A DNA stretch of 47,459 nucleotides from Bacilli bacterium. GTDB taxonomy: Bacteria > Bacillota_I > Bacilli_A > ML615J-28 > CAG-698. Every line of letters starts with the position of its first letter. The stretch's first letter is position 1. Both the position numbers and the translations under genes were made by a program. Below are positions 1 to 18,455 of the stretch, piece by piece. The notes beneath the pieces were generated by a model. That model made no database searches and was not told the DNA's origin. It saw only the letters and a program-made list of their open reading frames with translations. Location of the stretch: NCBI GenBank assembly GCA_028691515.1, contig JAQUZE010000007.1, positions 27,645 to 75,103 of the forward strand, given 5' to 3'.

Positions 1-1889
1 AAGAAGAATTGGTAGTTGAAGAGAAAAAAGAAGCAAAAAAGACTGCTTCTAAAAAAACACCAAAAGCAAAAAAAGAAGAGGCTGTTGAAGAAGCAGTTGA
101 AAAAGAAGAAGAATTGGTAGTTGAAGAAAAAAAAGAAACAAAAAAAGCTGTTTCTAAAAAAACACCAAATACAAAAGAAAGTGAAGAAGTTGAAAAAACT
201 GAAGCTGAAGATGTTAAACAAGAAGAATTAGTAGTAGAAGAAAAGAATTCTACGCTGGTTAAAGACGAAGTTGAAAAAACTGAAGAAAATGATGTTGATG
301 ATTCAGAAGAATCTGATGATGTTGAAGCTCAAGAAGTTGATGAAGACGAAGAAGATGAAGAAGAAACAGTTGAAGAACCAGAAGAAAAGAAAATTCGTTA
401 TAAACAACTTCAATTAGTAAAAGGAGAGGTTGTTGACGTAGAACCTGGTAGACCTTCTTATACTGATGAATCTGGAAGAACATATAGAGGCAGAGAAGAA
501 AGAGTTCTTATTCGCCTTGAAGATGGTCAAGAAGGATATCTTTTAAAAAGAGATTGTGCTCAATTAGAAGAAAAAGATGAATTATTTGATGTGTTTTTAC
601 CTGGCGATATTATAGAAGTTATTATTAAAAAAATATATCCGGATGGTGGAAAGTTTTTATTTTCTACAAAACTTTTAGCAATGCGAGAAGATTTAAAACA
701 ATTTGAAAATTCTGTTAAGAATCATGAAATTTTATCTGCAAAAGTTACTAAAGTAATTCCAGCAAATAAAGATAAAAATCGACCTTCTCCTGGTTTACTA
801 CTTCGATATAATGGATATAGCTGTTTACTTCCAAGTAGTCAAATTAATGCAACTGATGAAGAAAAAGAAAAATTAATTGGCGAAGAAATATTAGTTACAC
901 CAATTAGAGTTGATTTTGGAAGAATTAGATTAATTGTTTCTAATACAGTTGCTTTAGCTATTGAAAGACGTCTTGAAAAAGAAAAGTTAATTGAAGAAAT
1001 TGAAGTTGGCGCTGTATACGATGGAGTTGTTAAAAACATTGAAAGTTATGGTGCATTTGTTGAACTTGTTCCTGGAATAGAAGGATTGCTTCATATTTCT
1101 GAAATTGATCATAGTCGTGTCTACAAAATAGAGAAATATGCAAAAGTTGGAGATACAATTAAAGTTAAAGTAATTAATATTGAGAAGAAAGAACATAATA
1201 CTCATATTGGACTATCTCGAAAAGCATTATTACCTAATTATTTTACTATGTTTACTGAAGGAAAAGTGGTTGGAGATGTTACTGAAGTAAAAGCAATTGA
1301 AATTAATAATTCGGGAGTTGTTGTACAACTTAATGAAGGTTTAACTGGTTTCTTGCCGAAGAGTGAATTTTCATGGGAAAGAGGAGCTTTTATTGAAGAT
1401 GTAATTTCTGTTGGTGATATGTTTGAGGCTAAAATTATTGAAATTGATCCTTCAAAGAAAAGAATTATTTTTTCTAGAAAACAACTAATTTCTAATCCTT
1501 GGGAATCACTTAATATTCAAGTTGGTGATAAAATTAAAGTTGAAGTGAAATATGCTCTTTCTAATGGATTTAAAGTTTCATATAATGAGGCAATTGGTTA
1601 TATGCCTATTAAGAGTATTAGGAGTGTTTCGCCTGATACAATAAAATTAGGAGATATTATTGATGTTTCTGTTGGTGCTGTTGATTCAAAAGCAACTCGA
1701 TTAATTGTTTATTATGATACATTTGAAGCTCGTCCAAGAGAAATGCCGGTTAGGGAAAAAGGTCCAGCACCAAGAAAAAATAATAGAATTGATACAAATC
1801 AGAATAAATATACTATTGAATCACAAGATCAAGTATCCAATACATTTGGCGATTTTTTAGATCAATTTAAAGATTCAAAAAAGAAATAG
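1..1889 (+). CDS. rpsA: S1-domain RNA-binding protein (ribosomal protein S1 homologue), 5' end cut by window
   Basis: The reading frame is open from the window edge, so the true start lies upstream; the TTG at 9 has no ribosome binding site. Counting from position 9, the first ~130 residues are low-complexity Glu/Lys/Val sequence with repeats starting EELVVEEK. About five S1 (OB-fold) units follow, near residues 138-215, 239-318, 334-410, 417-494 and 505-575. The third is the most canonical (GVVKNIESYGAFVEL, then GIEGLLHISEI). S1 proteins bind mRNA and ribosomes. The Bacillus relative YpfD is shorter and lacks such an extension, as far as I know. The gene ends in TAG, 9 bases before der, in the order also seen in Bacillus (ypfD-der-gpsA-hbs). 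Family is certain; whether it works as true S1 is less so. Confidence 0.88.
   Translation, partial: EELVVEEKKEAKKTASKKTPKAKKEEAVEEAVEKEEELVVEEKKETKKAVSKKTPNTKESEEVEKTEAEDVKQEELVVEEKNSTLVKDEVEKTEENDVDDSEESDDVEAQEVDEDEEDEEETVEEPEEKKIRYKQLQLVKGEVVDVEPGRPSYTDESGRTYRGREERVLIRLEDGQEGYLLKRDCAQLEEKDELFDVFLPGDIIEVIIKKIYPDGGKFLFSTKLLAMREDLKQFENSVKNHEILSAKVTKVIPANKDKNRPSPGLLLRYNGYSCLLPSSQINATDEEKEKLIGEEILVTPIRVDFGRIRLIVSNTVALAIERRLEKEKLIEEIEVGAVYDGVVKNIESYGAFVELVPGIEGLLHISEIDHSRVYKIEKYAKVGDTIKVKVINIEKKEHNTHIGLSRKALLPNYFTMFTEGKVVGDVTEVKAIEINNSGVVVQLNEGLTGFLPKSEFSWERGAFIEDVISVGDMFEAKIIEIDPSKKRIIFSRKQLISNPWESLNIQVGDKIKVEVKYALSNGFKVSYNEAIGYMPIKSIRSVSPDTIKLGDIIDVSVGAVDSKATRLIVYYDTFEARPREMPVREKGPAPRKNNRIDTNQNKYTIESQDQVSNTFGDFLDQFKDSKKK
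3..245 (+). repeat. Coding tandem repeats in the S1 protein N-terminus
   Basis: Three in-frame units begin with codons for EELVVEEK at about 3, 108 and 222. The first two also share a downstream K-K-x-x-S-K-K-T-P segment. Spacing is 105 then 114 bases, so the units are degenerate. The product is a highly charged tail rich in Glu and Lys. The array probably extends upstream of the window. Confidence 0.75.
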
Positions 1890-11394: not shown

Positions 11395-12693
11395 TTGTTT
11401 AAGAAAAGTAGCGGTACTCTGATTCGTGAACATTCAGGACATAAAGGGTTATCTGAAAATAGCCCAATAGTTGAATTTCTGAAACCGAATTTTGTTTATT
11501 TTCCTTTAATGGAAAATAATTGTCCTTATGAAAGTTTAGTTAATGTTGGTGATAAAGTTAAGGTTGGACAACTGATTTCTATAAAAAGTGGTCGTTTTCC
11601 ATCATTTACTCATTCATCAGTTAGTGGAGAAGTAATTTCAATTGATAAAAAGATGTGGCATCCAAGTGGTAAAATGGTTCCAACAATTGAAATTAAAAAT
11701 GATCTTCAAGAAACAATGTTTGAAGAAATTAAAGATAATGATGTTTCTAATTTATCGAGTAAAGATATTATAAATATTGTAAAAAACTGTGGTGTTGTTG
11801 GTCTTGGCGGTGCCTGTTTTCCAACATATGTAAAATATAATCCTGACAATAATATTAATACAATTATTATTAATGCAGCAGAATGTGAACCATATATTAC
11901 TGCAGATTATGTGACGATGATTAATAATGTTAATGAATTAATTAGAGGTATTTCTTATATTATGAAAGCAAATAACGCCTCAAGAGGAGTTATTGCTGTT
12001 AAAAAATATCATACTGAACTTGTTGAACATTTACAAAAAAGTTTAGCAAATATTAATAACATTTCTTTATTTTTATTGGATAATGTATATCCTGCTGGTT
12101 GGGAAAAATATATTGTACAAAGAGTTCAAAAAAAGACTTATAAAGGTTTGCCAGCTGAAGTAGGAGCAGTTGTGAATAATGTTCAAACTGCTGTATCTGT
12201 TTGTCAAGCTGTTGAAAAAAATATGCCTTTGATTGAAAAAATAATCACCTTTACAGGTAAGGGTTTAAAAGAACCTAAAAATGTAAGAGTTAAAATTGGA
12301 TCATTAGTTAATGAAATAATTGATTTTATTGGTGGGTATATTGATGATTTAGAAGATGCTTATTTAATTGCTGGTGGACCAATGACTGGTAACGCAATTG
12401 TTTTTGACAATATGATTGCTGCTAAAATGTTAGGTTCTGTAATTGTAATGCCTAAGGAAAAACAAGAAGTAGAACTTCCTTGTATGGGCTGTGGAAAATG
12501 TACAGAAATTTGTCCGGTGTTTTTATCTCCTATTTTAATTAAAAATGCTTATGATGACAAAGATGTAGAAAAAATAATAAAATTAGATGCTAATCGTTGT
12601 ATGGCTTGTGGACTTTGTTCTTATGTTTGTCCATCTAGGATTGAACTTACTGATATAGTTACAAGAGCTAAAACGTTAGCTAATAAGAAATAG
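11395..12693 (+). CDS. rnfC: Rnf electron transport complex subunit C
   Basis: RnfC is the membrane-associated NADH/FMN and iron-sulfur subunit of the Rnf complex, which couples ferredoxin:NAD+ electron transfer to ion pumping. Seen here are the nucleotide-binding GVVGLGGACFPTYVK and INAAECEPYITADY, and near the C-terminus two four-cysteine clusters: CMGCGKCTEICP from C363 and CMACGLCSYVCP from C402. The N-terminal H-x-G-x-K-G-L-S segment is usual. Length (432) fits. The start is TTG at 11395, 8 bases after GGGAGG. It is the first of six genes in the order C-D-G-E-A-B, each within 10 bases of or overlapping the next. Confidence 0.97.
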   Translation: MFKKSSGTLIREHSGHKGLSENSPIVEFLKPNFVYFPLMENNCPYESLVNVGDKVKVGQLISIKSGRFPSFTHSSVSGEVISIDKKMWHPSGKMVPTIEIKNDLQETMFEEIKDNDVSNLSSKDIINIVKNCGVVGLGGACFPTYVKYNPDNNINTIIINAAECEPYITADYVTMINNVNELIRGISYIMKANNASRGVIAVKKYHTELVEHLQKSLANINNISLFLLDNVYPAGWEKYIVQRVQKKTYKGLPAEVGAVVNNVQTAVSVCQAVEKNMPLIEKIITFTGKGLKEPKNVRVKIGSLVNEIIDFIGGYIDDLEDAYLIAGGPMTGNAIVFDNMIAAKMLGSVIVMPKEKQEVELPCMGCGKCTEICPVFLSPILIKNAYDDKDVEKIIKLDANRCMACGLCSYVCPSRIELTDIVTRAKTLANKK

Positions 12694-12702
12694 GTGAAAT
12701 AA

Positions 12703-14991
12703 ATGAAAAATAAAAGATTTGCATTAGCAAAAGCTCCATTTATTAGAAGAGCTGACTCTACTTTAAGCACATCGCAAATGATGAAATATTTTGTGATGGC
12801 TTTAGTACCAATTATTTTATTTGCGTGGGTAAAAAATGGATTGTTACCATTTTTAGAAGTAGAAACTAAAAATTTTAGTAGTGTTTTAACTATGCTTTAT
12901 CCATTGTTTTTAGTATTTATTGGCGGATTTACTAGTTTTATTTCTGAATTTATTTATTTTAAATATATTAAAAAAACTGTAAATCCACTTATAGAAACTG
13001 GTAATTCTTTTGCAATTATTCCTGGATTATTATTAGGAATGATAGTATCTATTAATACTCCTTTATGGATATTAATAATAGGTGTATTATTTGCTACAAT
13101 TATTGGAAAATTATTATTTGGTGGATTTGGTAAAAATGTTTTTAATCCTGCTTTAGTAGGTTACTTATTTATTCAAACTGCATATTTTGGAGTTATTTCT
13201 AAAAATGGAGGATATTTAAATGGAAGTGAAGCAATTGGTTTGGATATTGTTAGTGGAGTTACTCCACTTGCAAATCTAACTGCAAATCCTTTAGGACATT
13301 TTGAGCAATTAGTTGCGCCTTATGGATCGTTAATGGATTTCTTTATTGGAACTATTCCAGGATCGCTTGCAGAAACTAGTGCGTTGTTATGTATACTTGC
13401 AGCTGCTTTCTTAATTTGGAAAAAAGTTATTAATTGGAGAATTCCTGTGATTTATGTTGGAACTGTTTTTGTTTTAACTTATATCATAGGTGCAGCTAAT
13501 GGTCATGCTACTGATTTATGGTATCCAACATTTGGAATCTTAAGTGGCGGGTTAATGTTTGGGGCTGTATTTATGGCAACTGAACCTGTTACATCACCTA
13601 GAACACCAAATGGTAAAATTTTATATGCTCTTTCTTTAGGAGCATTAACTATATTATTCCGTTATAAATCAAACTTCCCTGAAGGAGTGGCAACTTCAAT
13701 TTTAGCAATGAATTTACTTGTAATTATTTTTGATAATATTGCCAGTAGATTAAGAGTTAATCCAAAAATTAAACAAGTTGTATCAATTTATGCTATTTTT
13801 GGTCTTGTTTTAATTGGAATAAGTGCTTACGCTATAACTAGCGTTAAACCTGCTTTATTAAATTATTCTTATGAATCAAGTGAAGTAGATTATCAAACTT
13901 TAAATATTAAACATACAATCAAATATGGTAATCATCAAATGATTGTTGAAACTGATTTAGAAGGTGAAGTCATTGATGTTGATTTACAAGGCCAAACTTA
14001 TCTAAATATAGATGAAATAAAAACTAGCGAAAAGTTAGTTAATAATTATAAAATAATTGAAAATTATATTGAAAAAGCTTATCAAGATGATGATGGTAAT
14101 TACGTATTAATTATTAAGACAAAAGGATTTAAAAATGAATTAATTGAAACTAATGTAATTATTAATACTGAATTTCAAATAACAAGTTTTGTTTCCGATA
14201 TTTCTAATGAATCATATTCTACATATAATAGTGATAATGATCCTGCAAATGGTTGGGTAGAAGCTAATGGACATCCAGATAAAATTATTGGAGAAATAAT
14301 TGTAGCAGGTGAAACTAATTTAGATAAAATTAATCCAGTTAGTGGTGCTACTGTATCATCTAAAGCAATTATAAAAGCAGCACAACTTACATTTGGTTAT
14401 ATTAAGGCATTAAAATTAGATGAAGCATTTATTGGTGAATCACCTGCGGTTAAAGTAGATTATGTGGCAAGTTATTTTGATGTTCCAACAATGAGTTTTA
14501 AATATGAATTTAAAATTGGAGAAGAAGAATTTTTTGTTTTAACTAATAATGCATATGAAATACAATCATTTAGTAATGACGATTTAGATACTGAGATAAT
14601 TAGACCTGAAGTAGAGGCCCTTATAAGCTCTAAAAAAGTTAGAAATTATATTGTAGAAGAAACTATTGAAGGAGATAATTTAATTTTAGAAATTAAAACA
14701 CAAGGTTATGCTACAACATTAACATCTACTGTTACTATTTCTAAAACTAGCAAGCAAATTATATCTCTAGATGTTAATGCTAGCGATGAAACATATGATG
14801 AAGAATATAATCAAGGTTGGAATGCTGCAAATGGACATCCTGATGAATTGATTCCACCTCAAATTGTAGAACATCAAGGCGATTTATCACTTGTTAATCC
14901 TGTGAGTGGAGCAACAGTTACTTCTAATGCAATTAAAAAGGCTGCATTATTAGCAAATGAATATATAGAGGAGTTTAGTGAATTATGGTAA
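12703..14991 (+). CDS. rnfD: Rnf subunit D fused to two C-terminal FMN-binding domains
   Basis: Residues 1-~350 are RnfD, the multi-span membrane subunit that carries covalent FMN; the phosphothreonine-FMN site corresponds to S-G-V-T187-P-L (SGAT in many relatives). KNVFNPALVGY and ATEPVTSPRTPNG are family motifs. The ordinary protein would end near residue 350. Here a further membrane segment (~357-381) leads into ~380 residues with two FMN-binding repeats, each ending in N-P-V-S-G-A-T-V (T550 and T738) and each preceded by GW-x2-A-NGHPD. The added part looks like an RnfG (one helix plus FMN domain) with the FMN domain doubled. At 762 residues it is about twice the usual length. It overlaps rnfG by 7 bases. 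Confidence 0.93.
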   Translation: MKNKRFALAKAPFIRRADSTLSTSQMMKYFVMALVPIILFAWVKNGLLPFLEVETKNFSSVLTMLYPLFLVFIGGFTSFISEFIYFKYIKKTVNPLIETGNSFAIIPGLLLGMIVSINTPLWILIIGVLFATIIGKLLFGGFGKNVFNPALVGYLFIQTAYFGVISKNGGYLNGSEAIGLDIVSGVTPLANLTANPLGHFEQLVAPYGSLMDFFIGTIPGSLAETSALLCILAAAFLIWKKVINWRIPVIYVGTVFVLTYIIGAANGHATDLWYPTFGILSGGLMFGAVFMATEPVTSPRTPNGKILYALSLGALTILFRYKSNFPEGVATSILAMNLLVIIFDNIASRLRVNPKIKQVVSIYAIFGLVLIGISAYAITSVKPALLNYSYESSEVDYQTLNIKHTIKYGNHQMIVETDLEGEVIDVDLQGQTYLNIDEIKTSEKLVNNYKIIENYIEKAYQDDDGNYVLIIKTKGFKNELIETNVIINTEFQITSFVSDISNESYSTYNSDNDPANGWVEANGHPDKIIGEIIVAGETNLDKINPVSGATVSSKAIIKAAQLTFGYIKALKLDEAFIGESPAVKVDYVASYFDVPTMSFKYEFKIGEEEFFVLTNNAYEIQSFSNDDLDTEIIRPEVEALISSKKVRNYIVEETIEGDNLILEIKTQGYATTLTSTVTISKTSKQIISLDVNASDETYDEEYNQGWNAANGHPDELIPPQIVEHQGDLSLVNPVSGATVTSNAIKKAALLANEYIEEFSELW

Positions 14992-15566
14992 AAATGTCAA
15001 ATACACTTAAATATACAATTTTTCTAATTGTATTAGGTTTGATTAGTGGCGGATTACTAGCTTTTATTAATTCAATTACTGATCCAATTATTCAGGAAAG
15101 AAAAGAAAAGGAAATACAAGATAAATTAATTGATGCTTTTCCTGGTTTTTCATCAACAAAAGAAGTTACTTCTGAATTTGATGATTTAGGAAATAATATT
15201 GGAGCTATATATTTAGTTGGTGATGAAGATGGTAAATTATTAACTGTTGTTTATGAAGTATATGCAAATGGTTATGGTGGAAAGGTTGTAACGTTAATAG
15301 GATTTAATCCTGAGGGTAAAATAGTTAATGCTGTTGTTGCTGATGCAAGTACCGAAACAAAAGGATTTGGTTCTGAACTTATCGGCCATGATTTTAAAAT
15401 TAATGATTTAGAAGTTATAGATTTTGATTTTTTTAATAGTGCGCAAATTATATCTGGTGCCACAGTTTCATCAACTGCTGCTGGAACGGGTATTAACGCA
15501 GGTGTATATCATTTTAATCAAAATAAAGATGTACTAATTGAAATGGTGGTGAAAGCAAATGACTAA
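14985..15566 (+). CDS. rnfG: Rnf subunit G, FMN-binding
   Basis: RnfG has one N-terminal membrane helix (residues ~8-30) and an extracytoplasmic FMN domain with flavin bound covalently to Thr by an ApbE-type transferase. The site is S-G-A-T160-V-S-S, followed by TGINAGVYHF. GYGGKVVTLIGFNPEGKI and ETKGFGSEL are usual for the family. The 193 residues are normal. It starts inside the end of rnfD and overlaps rnfE by 8 bases. An alternative ATG lies at 14994. With the two domains on RnfD, the complex would offer up to three outward FMN domains. Confidence 0.96.
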   Translation: MVKMSNTLKYTIFLIVLGLISGGLLAFINSITDPIIQERKEKEIQDKLIDAFPGFSSTKEVTSEFDDLGNNIGAIYLVGDEDGKLLTVVYEVYANGYGGKVVTLIGFNPEGKIVNAVVADASTETKGFGSELIGHDFKINDLEVIDFDFFNSAQIISGATVSSTAAGTGINAGVYHFNQNKDVLIEMVVKAND

Positions 15567-16215
15567 ATCTCAAAATTTTTTAAAAGGAATTTGGAAAGAA
15601 AACCCTATTTTGGTTTCTGCCCTTGGGATGTGTCCAACACTAGCAATTACAACAAGTTTAGAAAATGCTTTGGGAATGGGAGCTGCAGTATTATTTGTAT
15701 TAGTACTTTCAAACTTAATCATTTCTTTAATAAGAAAAATTGTTCCTAGTCAAATTAGAATTCCTGTATATATTGTCGTTATTGCATCTTTAGTTACTAT
15801 TGTTGATATGATTATGGCTGCTTATCTTCCTGGAATTCATGCTTCACTTGGTATCTTTATTCCTTTGATTGTAGTTAATTGTATTATCTTAGGGAGAGCA
15901 GAGGCTTTTGCTTCAGAAAATAAACCTATTGATTCTGTTTTAGATGCTGTAGGTATGGCAATTGGTTATACTTTAGTAATAGCAGTTATTTCAATTATTC
16001 GTGAAGTTTTAGGGACAGGAACAATTACTGTCTGGAAAGAAATAGCTTTAACAATTAATCCAGATGGAAAATTTGATTTTTTCTCTAGTTTCTTTGTATC
16101 GCCAGCTGGTTCATTTATTGTAATTGGATTGCTTTTTGGTATATTTGCTATTATTAATAAAAAACGTGAAGAAAAGAAAAAATTAGCTTTAAAAGCAGAA
16201 AAGGTGAGTGAATAA
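15559..16215 (+). CDS. rnfE: Rnf subunit E
   Basis: RnfE is a six-helix membrane subunit, homologous to RnfA and inverted relative to it; the pair holds an iron-sulfur cluster in the membrane. The cluster-type cysteines are present in LGMC25PTL and VNC108IILG. The protein starts with the usual NPILVSALGMCP and ends in a Lys/Glu-rich tail. At 218 residues it is of normal size. GGTGGTGA precedes the ATG inside rnfG, and the stop overlaps the rnfA start by one base. Confidence 0.97.
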   Translation: MTKSQNFLKGIWKENPILVSALGMCPTLAITTSLENALGMGAAVLFVLVLSNLIISLIRKIVPSQIRIPVYIVVIASLVTIVDMIMAAYLPGIHASLGIFIPLIVVNCIILGRAEAFASENKPIDSVLDAVGMAIGYTLVIAVISIIREVLGTGTITVWKEIALTINPDGKFDFFSSFFVSPAGSFIVIGLLFGIFAIINKKREEKKKLALKAEKVSE

Positions 16216-16781
16216 TGGGACTTATTTCTATAGCATTTAGTGCAATTTTAGTTCAAAACGTTATTTTATCAAGATTTTTGGGAATTTGTCCTTTTCTAGG
16301 TGTTTCTAATAAATCAAAATCATCTATTGGTATGGGACTTGCAGTTGTTTTTGTAATAACACTTTCTTCTGTAGTTTCATGGTTAATATATTATTATTTG
16401 CTTGATGCATTTTCAATGACTTATATGAGAACTATAGTTTTCATATTGGTAATTGCGTCTTTAGTACAAATAATTGAAATGTTTTTAAAAAAATTTATAC
16501 CATCTCTTTATAAAGCATTAGGTATATATTTACCTTTAATCACTACAAATTGTGCAGTTTTAGGAGTTGCGACTTTAAGTATAGATAATAGTTATAATTT
16601 ACTTGAAACTTTAACTTTTGCTTTTGCATCGTCTGTTGGGTTCTTACTTGTAATTTATATTTTTTCAACATTAAGAGAAAAAATGAATAGAACTGAGAAT
16701 AGCTTTTCTGGAATTCCAATTGCTTTAATTACTGCTGGAATCATGGCAATGATATTTGCAAGATTTGCGGGGGTAATTTAA
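16215..16781 (+). CDS. rnfA: Rnf subunit A
   Basis: RnfA is the partner of RnfE in the membrane core. Six hydrophobic segments and the motifs VQNVILSRFLGIC25PFLGVS and TTNC113AVLGVA are present; both cysteines fit the intramembrane iron-sulfur cluster. At 188 residues it is typical. AAGGTGAG lies upstream in the end of rnfE. The TAA is followed directly by the rnfB ATG. Confidence 0.97.
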   Translation: MGLISIAFSAILVQNVILSRFLGICPFLGVSNKSKSSIGMGLAVVFVITLSSVVSWLIYYYLLDAFSMTYMRTIVFILVIASLVQIIEMFLKKFIPSLYKALGIYLPLITTNCAVLGVATLSIDNSYNLLETLTFAFASSVGFLLVIYIFSTLREKMNRTENSFSGIPIALITAGIMAMIFARFAGVI

Positions 16782-17096
16782 ATGATTATTTTGAGTGCTT
16801 TTACTATCTATGTTTTGCCAGCTTTAGTTTTAGCTGGTGTGGGGGCATTATTTGGGTTATTTATTGGTATTGCTGCAAAATATTTTTACGTTAAAGAAGA
16901 TAATAGAATTCAAGAAGTTCAAGATATGTTGCCAGGATATAATTGTGGAGCTTGTGGTTATCCAGGTTGTTCTGGTCTTGCTAAGGCGATTGTTGAAGAT
17001 GGTGTAAATCCTAGATTGTGTAAACCAGGCAAACAAGAAATGGTTGAAGAAATTAAAAAATATATGTTAGAACATAATGGAAATGAAAACGATTAA
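16782..17096 (+). CDS. rnfB: Rnf subunit B, short form without ferredoxin domains
   Basis: RnfB normally takes electrons from ferredoxin. This protein has the N-terminal helix (~residues 5-30) and the 4Fe-4S domain N-C55-G-A-C58-G-Y-P-G-C63 with C80 in NPRLCKPG, but ends at residue 104. Usual forms run to ~190 residues or much more and carry at least one C-terminal 2[4Fe-4S] ferredoxin module. The 90 bases after the stop encode no Cys-rich sequence in any frame, so this is not a recent frameshift. The end (KKYMLEHNGNEND) looks like a settled C-terminus. Electrons may enter through RnfC or a separate ferredoxin, such as the one at 24524-24691. Confidence 0.92.
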   Translation: MIILSAFTIYVLPALVLAGVGALFGLFIGIAAKYFYVKEDNRIQEVQDMLPGYNCGACGYPGCSGLAKAIVEDGVNPRLCKPGKQEMVEEIKKYMLEHNGNEND

Positions 17097-17186: not shown

Positions 17187-18455
17187 ATGTTGAAAAATTT
17201 CGGAAAATTAATTACAGTACTTGTAATAGCATTTTCTCTATTTGTATTAGTTGGTTGTACTAAAGAAGAAACAATTTCTTTTGCTGATGAAAATTTAACT
17301 ATGGTTGTTGGAGATGAAGAAACTCTTGCTCCAGTATTAAGCGATGAAGCTTTAGAAGTAGTATATTCTGCTGTACCAGCTGACGCTGTTACATTTGATG
17401 GTAGTAAAATTACTGCTGTAAAAGCTGGAACTGTTACAGTTACAGCAACTATTAAAGATACAAAAATATCTGCAACACTTACAGTAACAATTACTGAACC
17501 TGTTGTAAAAACTTATGCTGCTGATGGAGTATATACTGCATTTGAAGCAGGCGACAATCATGGAGCGCCAATGGTAACTACAGTTTCTGTTACTATTGCT
17601 GATGATGAAATCGTAAGTTTCTTTATTGATTGTGTTCAATCTACAGCTGTAAAAACTGAGGAAGTTGTTACTGATTACAAATTTAATGAAAAATCTAAAA
17701 AAGAGTTAGGATATCTTTATGGAATGCATAATACACCTAACGCAGAATTTGAATATGAAAGACAAGATCTTACAACAACTGAAGGACTTGCTGCATATGA
17801 AGCATATTTAGAAGAATCAGGAAAATTAGAATGGTTTGAACAAGCTGCTTTAATTGAAGCTCATTTTGTTGCTAATGGAACTACATTAGAACTTGATGAA
17901 ACAACTGAAGCAATTACTAATGTTGCAGGCGTTACTGTTAAAGATGGAAGTTATTCAAAACTTGCAGCTGAAGCTGTTCAAAATGCAATAGATGGAAAAG
18001 TAATTTCAGTTATGGCATCTGGTAATCATGACATAATTTGGGCTGAAGGAACTGTAAATGCTGAAGGAAGTTTAACAGAATTAGAGTTAAACACACTACA
18101 AGGCAGAATGGTTGAAGGCGCTTATGCTTGGGATGCAAAGAACAAGCAAGAAAAAGGTTATTTATATGGAATGCATAACTCACCAAATGCTGAGTTAGAA
18201 TATGAAAAACAAGATCTTACAACAACTGAAGGACTTGCTGCTTATAAGGCATATCTTGAAGAAGCTGGTAAATTAGAATGGTTTGAACAAGTTGAACTAA
18301 TTACTGATTATGTTTTAGAAAATGGAGTTGCTGGCTTAGTTCTTGAAGGTACTAAATTAGATGGATCTGTTGAAGCATTATCTGGAGTTTCAATAACTGC
18401 AATAGGTTATGTAACTGTTCTTAATGCATTATATACAGCGTTTCCTAATGCATAA
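17187..18455 (+). CDS. Surface lipoprotein with Big2-like and two degenerate FMN-binding-like units
   Basis: A signal peptide with lipobox LVGC (C24) anchors this 422-residue protein on the outer membrane face. Residues ~30-107 resemble a bacterial Ig-like (Big2) domain. Two units follow, each with G-Y-L-Y-G-M-H-N, a 45-residue near-duplicate ending in EWFEQ, and a closing motif like the FMN attachment site: V-A-G-V-T250-V and L-S-G-V-S402-I in place of SGAT-[ST]. From memory, the YGM...EWFEQ pattern recalls the PplA/cAD1-precursor group of extracellular flavolipoproteins; that link needs a search. AAAGGAGG precedes the ATG. It directly follows rnfB, which supports a role in electron transfer at the surface. 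Flavin loading is uncertain because both motifs are altered. Confidence 0.8.
   Translation: MLKNFGKLITVLVIAFSLFVLVGCTKEETISFADENLTMVVGDEETLAPVLSDEALEVVYSAVPADAVTFDGSKITAVKAGTVTVTATIKDTKISATLTVTITEPVVKTYAADGVYTAFEAGDNHGAPMVTTVSVTIADDEIVSFFIDCVQSTAVKTEEVVTDYKFNEKSKKELGYLYGMHNTPNAEFEYERQDLTTTEGLAAYEAYLEESGKLEWFEQAALIEAHFVANGTTLELDETTEAITNVAGVTVKDGSYSKLAAEAVQNAIDGKVISVMASGNHDIIWAEGTVNAEGSLTELELNTLQGRMVEGAYAWDAKNKQEKGYLYGMHNSPNAELEYEKQDLTTTEGLAAYKAYLEEAGKLEWFEQVELITDYVLENGVAGLVLEGTKLDGSVEALSGVSITAIGYVTVLNALYTAFPNA
17709..18290 (+). repeat. In-frame duplication in the lipoprotein gene (17709-17843 and 18156-18290)
   Basis: Two 135-base copies lie 447 bases apart and in frame. Their translations agree at 40 of 45 residues, and a block around the codons for QDLTTTEGLAAY is nearly identical in DNA. 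The rest of the two units is much less alike, so this block is either recently converted or tightly constrained. Confidence 0.9.

Follow-up and report, generated by a model that had tools for sequence, protein, structure and literature searches.

The window, a stretch of 47,459 nucleotides from an uncultured Acholeplasma relative, carries an Rnf operon in the gene order rnfC-rnfD-rnfG-rnfE-rnfA-rnfB, with genes that overlap or are closely spaced, followed by a gene for a lipoprotein (Table 1). Judged by its sequence, the rnfD frame is complete and encodes a true RnfD, extended by an eleventh transmembrane helix and two FMN_bind domains. The product has 762 residues, compared to 310–366 for canonical RnfD chains in the PDB. 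The rnfG gene overlaps the fusion gene by 7 bases and is separate from it; the fusion thus adds to RnfG instead of replacing it, as an earlier note on this DNA had proposed.

Table 1. Features of the Rnf locus. Positions are those of the window; aa, residues of the fusion protein.
Feature	Position	Strand	Evidence
rnfC	11395–12693	+	TIGR01945, E 6.8e-104
rnfD-FMN fusion gene, intact frame, 762 aa	12703–14991	+	Pfam, six-frame search, AlphaFold2
RnfD core	aa 1–352 of 762		
T187 codon, predicted covalent FMN site of RnfD core (SGVT)	13261–13263	+	alignment to solved RnfD/NqrB chains
Extra C-terminal (eleventh) transmembrane helix	13768–13842, aa 356–380	+	AlphaFold2 helix; predicted N-in/C-out by charge in relatives
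FMN unit U1, SGAT with T550	13855–14427, aa ~385–575	+	FMN_bind match, motif alignment
FMN unit U2, SGAT with T738	14428–14988, aa ~576–762	+	Pfam FMN_bind 668–748, motif alignment
rnfG, 193 aa, one FMN_bind domain, SGAT with T160	14985–15566	+	profile match, motif
rnfE	15559–16215	+	TIGR01948
rnfA	16215–16781	+	TIGR01943
rnfB, short, 104 aa: one helix and a single 4-Cys Fe-S domain	16782–17096	+	PF04060 only
Lipoprotein, two remote FMN_bind-like repeats, candidate partner	17187–18455	+	AlphaFold2 model, relatives, remote Pfam/Foldseek matches, co-occurrence

The match of the fusion protein to RnfD and to two FMN_bind domains is far beyond chance. In the Pfam search, NQR2_RnfD_RnfE (PF03116) covers residues 10–347 (4–290 of 296, E 2.4e-74), and TIGR01946 scores the core at 198.5 bits, just below its cut-off of 207. 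FMN_bind (PF04205) matches two separate stretches above cut-off (E 4.4e-11), the best of them within U2, and a six-frame search of the genome returns both in the same frame (30.9 and 24.0 bits, cut-off 22). The two additional domains that the earlier note had read from the letters, both beyond residue 380 and each with its SGAT motif, are thereby borne out. U1 and U2 share 35% identity. An AlphaFold2 model based on 30 homologues (mean pLDDT 82, pTM 0.57) shows the RnfD core, the helix and then two alpha/beta units of ~190 residues each; how the domains lie relative to each other is not fixed by the model. In a Foldseek search, the core matches solved RnfD and NqrB, with 7zc6_D as the best (E 8e-14). 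RnfG (7zc6_G, probability 0.94, E 0.1) and NqrC (8ad0_C, 0.93, E 0.19) are matched more weakly, by the model taken as a whole. No solved structure was related to the tail by sequence, three weak hits at E 0.29 not being credible.

Three flavin-type motifs lie in the fusion protein: SGVT187, SGAT550 and SGAT738. The first had been noticed earlier as the core's own flavin site, and T187 (SGVTPLA) indeed aligns with the flavinylated threonine of 7zc6_D (TTATPLA) and of other solved RnfD/NqrB chains, and is invariant among 17 aligned sequences. Across 20 units of the tail type, the motif alanine is invariant, the attachment residue is threonine in 19 and serine in one, and glycine is present in 17. 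Few columns of these units are as well conserved as the motif positions; the flavin site is therefore under selection. The genome encodes a single ApbE (C6:74938–75801, E 4.6e-66), an exported lipoprotein with the lipobox LFGC. Profile matches for each domain, the [ST]GA[ST] motif and an exported ApbE in the genome are thus all in place, and the tail would be expected to be loaded with FMN. In one clade (L073, L074, L083), which has no lipoprotein gene, a one-unit RnfD tail is retained with its motif decayed to TATQTS; a tail can therefore persist without the canonical site.

Is the fusion a peculiarity of this genome? RnfD occurs in 34 of 43 genomes of the window's order, with complete-gene frames from ~320 to 762 aa. 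In a sample of the class, 36 RnfD among the matches listed have frames of at least 450 aa. Of these, 27 from outside the window's order were fetched, and a profile match or a motif reveals an FMN tail in 25. RnfD tails of one, two or three FMN domains turn up in several separate clades across class Bacilli, the largest number of motifs being three (L157, 719 aa, three FMN_bind stretches). Judged by these surveys, the fusion is not unique but widespread in the class. On the tree of RnfD cores, the state with a fused tail and a separate RnfG needs at least five changes, forced by the starred branches. The window, L070, L071 and L080 carry two units on RnfD, and L075 and L077 carry one. L076 and L078, which the RnfD tree places as sister to the window (100/99), have a plain RnfD and two units fused to RnfG instead, and many other relatives in Acholeplasmatales and Izemoplasmatales have a separate gene between rnfD and rnfG, whose product consists of a helix and two domains, the first RnfG-like and the second akin to the tail units. 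Units on RnfD, on RnfG or on a protein of their own are as expected of a module that works outside the membrane near RnfG and RnfD. Two other arrangements were seen: an RnfE with a C-terminal FMN_bind domain (L167:10017–11117, 366 aa, SGAT347), and an RnfG-like protein of 1154 aa with several GAS motifs at the rnfG position (L187:3946–7410).

The separate gene raises the question of whether the fusion could be an artefact, in which neighbouring genes were joined by an assembly error or the loss of a stop codon. The same in-frame fusion is found at the same place in independent genomes (L070, L071, L080 and others), and neither the leader helix nor the RnfG-like first domain of the separate gene is present in the fused tail. 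We regard an artefact as refuted by the shared fusion, and give it almost no weight.

Where did the tail units come from? In a midpoint-rooted tree of FMN units, the tail units group with the second domains of the separate protein, and the RnfGs with its first domains (83/93). The earlier note had considered duplication of an RnfG-like cassette the likely origin. This finds no support in a tail that forms a lineage apart from all RnfGs and whose relatives are carried as a separate gene or on RnfG; in particular, a copy of the neighbouring rnfG is unsupported. The separation instead argues for a distinct FMN unit that has changed its host subunit, by an exact path that we infer. The two units of the RnfG fusion in L076 and L078 are sisters in the tree (100/99), which makes this duplication, at least, lineage-specific.

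RnfD and NqrB have ten transmembrane helices (PMC12174285), and the side on which the tail lies hinges on the eleventh. This helix occurs in relatives with or without a tail. The stretch before it has a net charge of +2 to +5 in relatives scored automatically (+1 in the short outlier L121), and the stretch after it is lower, mostly 0 or negative with some values of +1 or +2. With the more positive side at its N-terminus, an N-in/C-out orientation is expected. A second line of evidence comes from family f11, of which five genomes (L151, L161, L166, L171, L176; 92–98% complete) lack a stand-alone rnfG in the operon and encode its RnfG-like domain only as a C-terminal extension of RnfD. In genome G337, the RnfD-fused domain is the sole FMN_bind match. 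Since RnfG acts on the outer face, an RnfG-like domain in this position, after the extra helix, places the C-terminus of RnfD outside in those complexes. The charge rule and the fused domains of f11 together indicate that the tail most likely lies outside the cell, in agreement with the outward placement proposed earlier, and neither points to a cytoplasmic tail. If all sites are loaded, the earlier count also holds, with three FMN_bind domains facing outward in addition to the flavin of RnfD; the flavin wire read from them in the earlier note stays a conjecture. A separate rnfG is likewise missing, with an RnfG-like domain fused to RnfD, in L086, L088, L098, L104 and L107.

The remainder of the operon differs from characterised complexes in rnfB, which lacks the C-terminal ferredoxin-accepting multi-cluster module. 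RnfB is similarly short in 74 of 77 related loci; this is typical of the class and hence not specific to the fusion. Electron entry into Rnf complexes of the short-RnfB type thus probably differs from that in characterised ones.

The lipoprotein encoded after rnfB contains two repeats with conserved GYxYxMH (YGMH) and LEWFEQ stretches. It has no Pfam hit itself; weak matches to PF04205 are seen in three of 15 relatives (best 5.8e-4), profile-profile comparison with the tails gives a probability of 68%, and the sole Foldseek match at E ≤0.001 is 2kzx (E 2e-4). Upstream of rnfC, L162 and L168 encode a related protein of 149 aa that belongs to FMN_bind and has an AGAT motif. In the lipoprotein of the window, the motifs at the attachment positions are AGVT and SGVS and not the canonical GAT; given this and the lack of a Pfam match, the protein may be free of flavin. 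Possibly it represents an uncharacterised redox or ligand-binding family. Of 19 loci whose extra FMN unit has an intact GA[ST], 18 have the lipoprotein gene after rnfB; of 13 loci that lack an extra unit or have a degenerate motif, none has it there (Fisher p 4e-8, ignoring shared descent). These counts cover the window and related loci in which the lipoprotein is present or at least 1500 bases follow rnfB, and omit the D-G fusions of the f11 type. The loci share descent, which means that the count overstates independence. Because we chose the scoring rule by hand once the data had been inspected, we treat the co-occurrence as a lead and not as a test.

What could two additional FMN domains on RnfD accomplish? 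In the Rnf cycle as it is known (PMC12174285), electrons pass between the [2Fe-2S] cluster of RnfA/E and the FMN of RnfD on the outer side of the membrane, with RnfG as their carrier. The best reading of a further pair of FMN domains attached next to this step is a relay that branches off the main route. We propose that an ApbE-flavinylated relay of two domains is attached to RnfD by the extra helix, which would place both outside beside RnfG. Its flavins would most likely exchange electrons with an outer flavin of RnfG or RnfD and hand these on. The lipoprotein whose gene follows rnfB would be the probable recipient, and the relay would then be a side exit from Rnf to an extracytosolic acceptor. 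We give this reading, an extracytosolic flavin relay off the RnfG/RnfD flavins that probably leads toward the lipoprotein, a probability of about 0.5. FMN loading, electron flow, its direction and the candidate acceptor are what we infer, whereas the fusion, both domains with their motifs, ApbE, the operon and the varied placement of such units are read directly from sequence, and comparison gives good support to a tail outside. The genome encodes genes of the pyruvate:ferredoxin oxidoreductase type, and a search of it (a metagenome-assembled genome, 95% complete) gave no match to [FeFe] or [NiFe] hydrogenases; an extra sink for low-potential electrons would therefore be plausible and useful. 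We also considered a fumarate-reductase-like outside acceptor and rejected it: every FAD_binding_2 match in the genome spans at most 89 of 414 positions, a partial Rossmann fold only.

The tail flavins might instead take part in the normal cycle, as carriers or a buffer between RnfA/E and RnfD that speed or smooth the reaction of ferredoxin with NAD, with no outside acceptor. The free variation in unit number (0, 1, 2 or 3) and in host subunit, which extends to RnfG and even RnfE, would suit such a role, and the family whose only RnfG-like domain in the operon sits on RnfD suggests that a domain tethered there apparently can do the job of RnfG. The tail units, however, stand apart from the RnfG lineage and the window retains a normal RnfG, and a pure buffer would leave the co-occurrence with the lipoprotein unexplained; we consider this explanation unlikely, though one to be taken seriously. 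The reversibility of Rnf (PMC12174285) invites yet another thought, in which the outer flavins accept electrons from an extracytosolic donor and feed them through Rnf toward NAD or ferredoxin, as the sequence fixes no direction. We identified no outside oxidoreductase that could supply such electrons, and the closest published multi-flavin systems are read as outward (PMC8238504), which makes an input improbable.

We think it equally improbable that the extra domains mainly aid assembly or docking, with flavin loading that is incidental or partial. The clade with the degenerate motif, which retains its single tail domain, speaks for such a structural role, but elsewhere the motif positions belong to the best conserved columns of the units. 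A more far-reaching view is that of a variant of Rnf across class Bacilli, marked by a short RnfB, by tethered extra FMN domains on RnfD, on RnfG or as a separate protein and, in Acholeplasmatales, by a dedicated FMN-like lipoprotein. In bacteria without a cell wall, such a variant would serve in respiration and send electrons out to an extracytosolic acceptor, and would not be a plain ferredoxin:NAD pump. This view is tentative, and we hold it to be rather doubtful at present.

The bacterial group to which the window belongs is held to live by fermentation, with no respiratory chain. Were the tail flavins to carry current, these presumed fermenters would unite an ion pump and an outward chain of flavins in one physical complex. 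The set of natural variants, with zero to three domains on RnfD, RnfG, RnfE or a separate protein, and with motifs intact or lost, makes the role of multi-flavin proteins testable by comparison.

The idea of a multi-flavin Rnf is not new in itself. Multi-flavinylated RnfG has been published in RNF complexes, with the proposal that the electron path branches there and leads to another acceptor on the outside (Meheust et al. 2021, PMC8238504). The likeness to the present case lies in an RNF operon with an outward subunit that has more than one FMN_bind domain. In that work the extra domains are on RnfG, whereas here they are on RnfD by way of an extra helix, RnfG is ordinary with one domain, and the tail units form a separate FMN_bind lineage. 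For RnfD with FMN_bind tails, we found no description in the open full-text literature; the architecture may nonetheless have been noticed before. Fusions of NqrB/RnfD with the NAD-binding domain of NqrF (PMC8238504, PMC11334425) similarly join a membrane core to a redox domain and are thought to conduct electrons outward. In those systems, the fused domain is cytosolic and binds NAD, there are two subunits only, and the core has no flavinylation site; in the window, the FMN_bind domains are predicted to lie outside, the full rnfCDGEAB operon is present and T187 is kept, and a Pfam search gave no PF00175 match. Compared to the canonical Rnf complexes of Clostridium tetanomorphum (7zc6) and Acetobacterium woodii (9eri), the RnfD core shows 34% and 32% identity, respectively, with a TM score of 0.80 by target length. 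The canonical RnfD chains (310 and 318 aa) have neither an eleventh helix nor an FMN tail, and canonical RnfB has the multi-cluster ferredoxin module (PMC12174285) that RnfB of the window lacks. Multi-FMN extracytosolic proteins (PMC8238504, PMC10339131) resemble the tail in having FMN_bind domains in tandem, which are, or in the tail would be, loaded by ApbE on the outer side of the membrane. Those proteins are separate entities, whereas here the tandem is covalently part of the ion-pump subunit.
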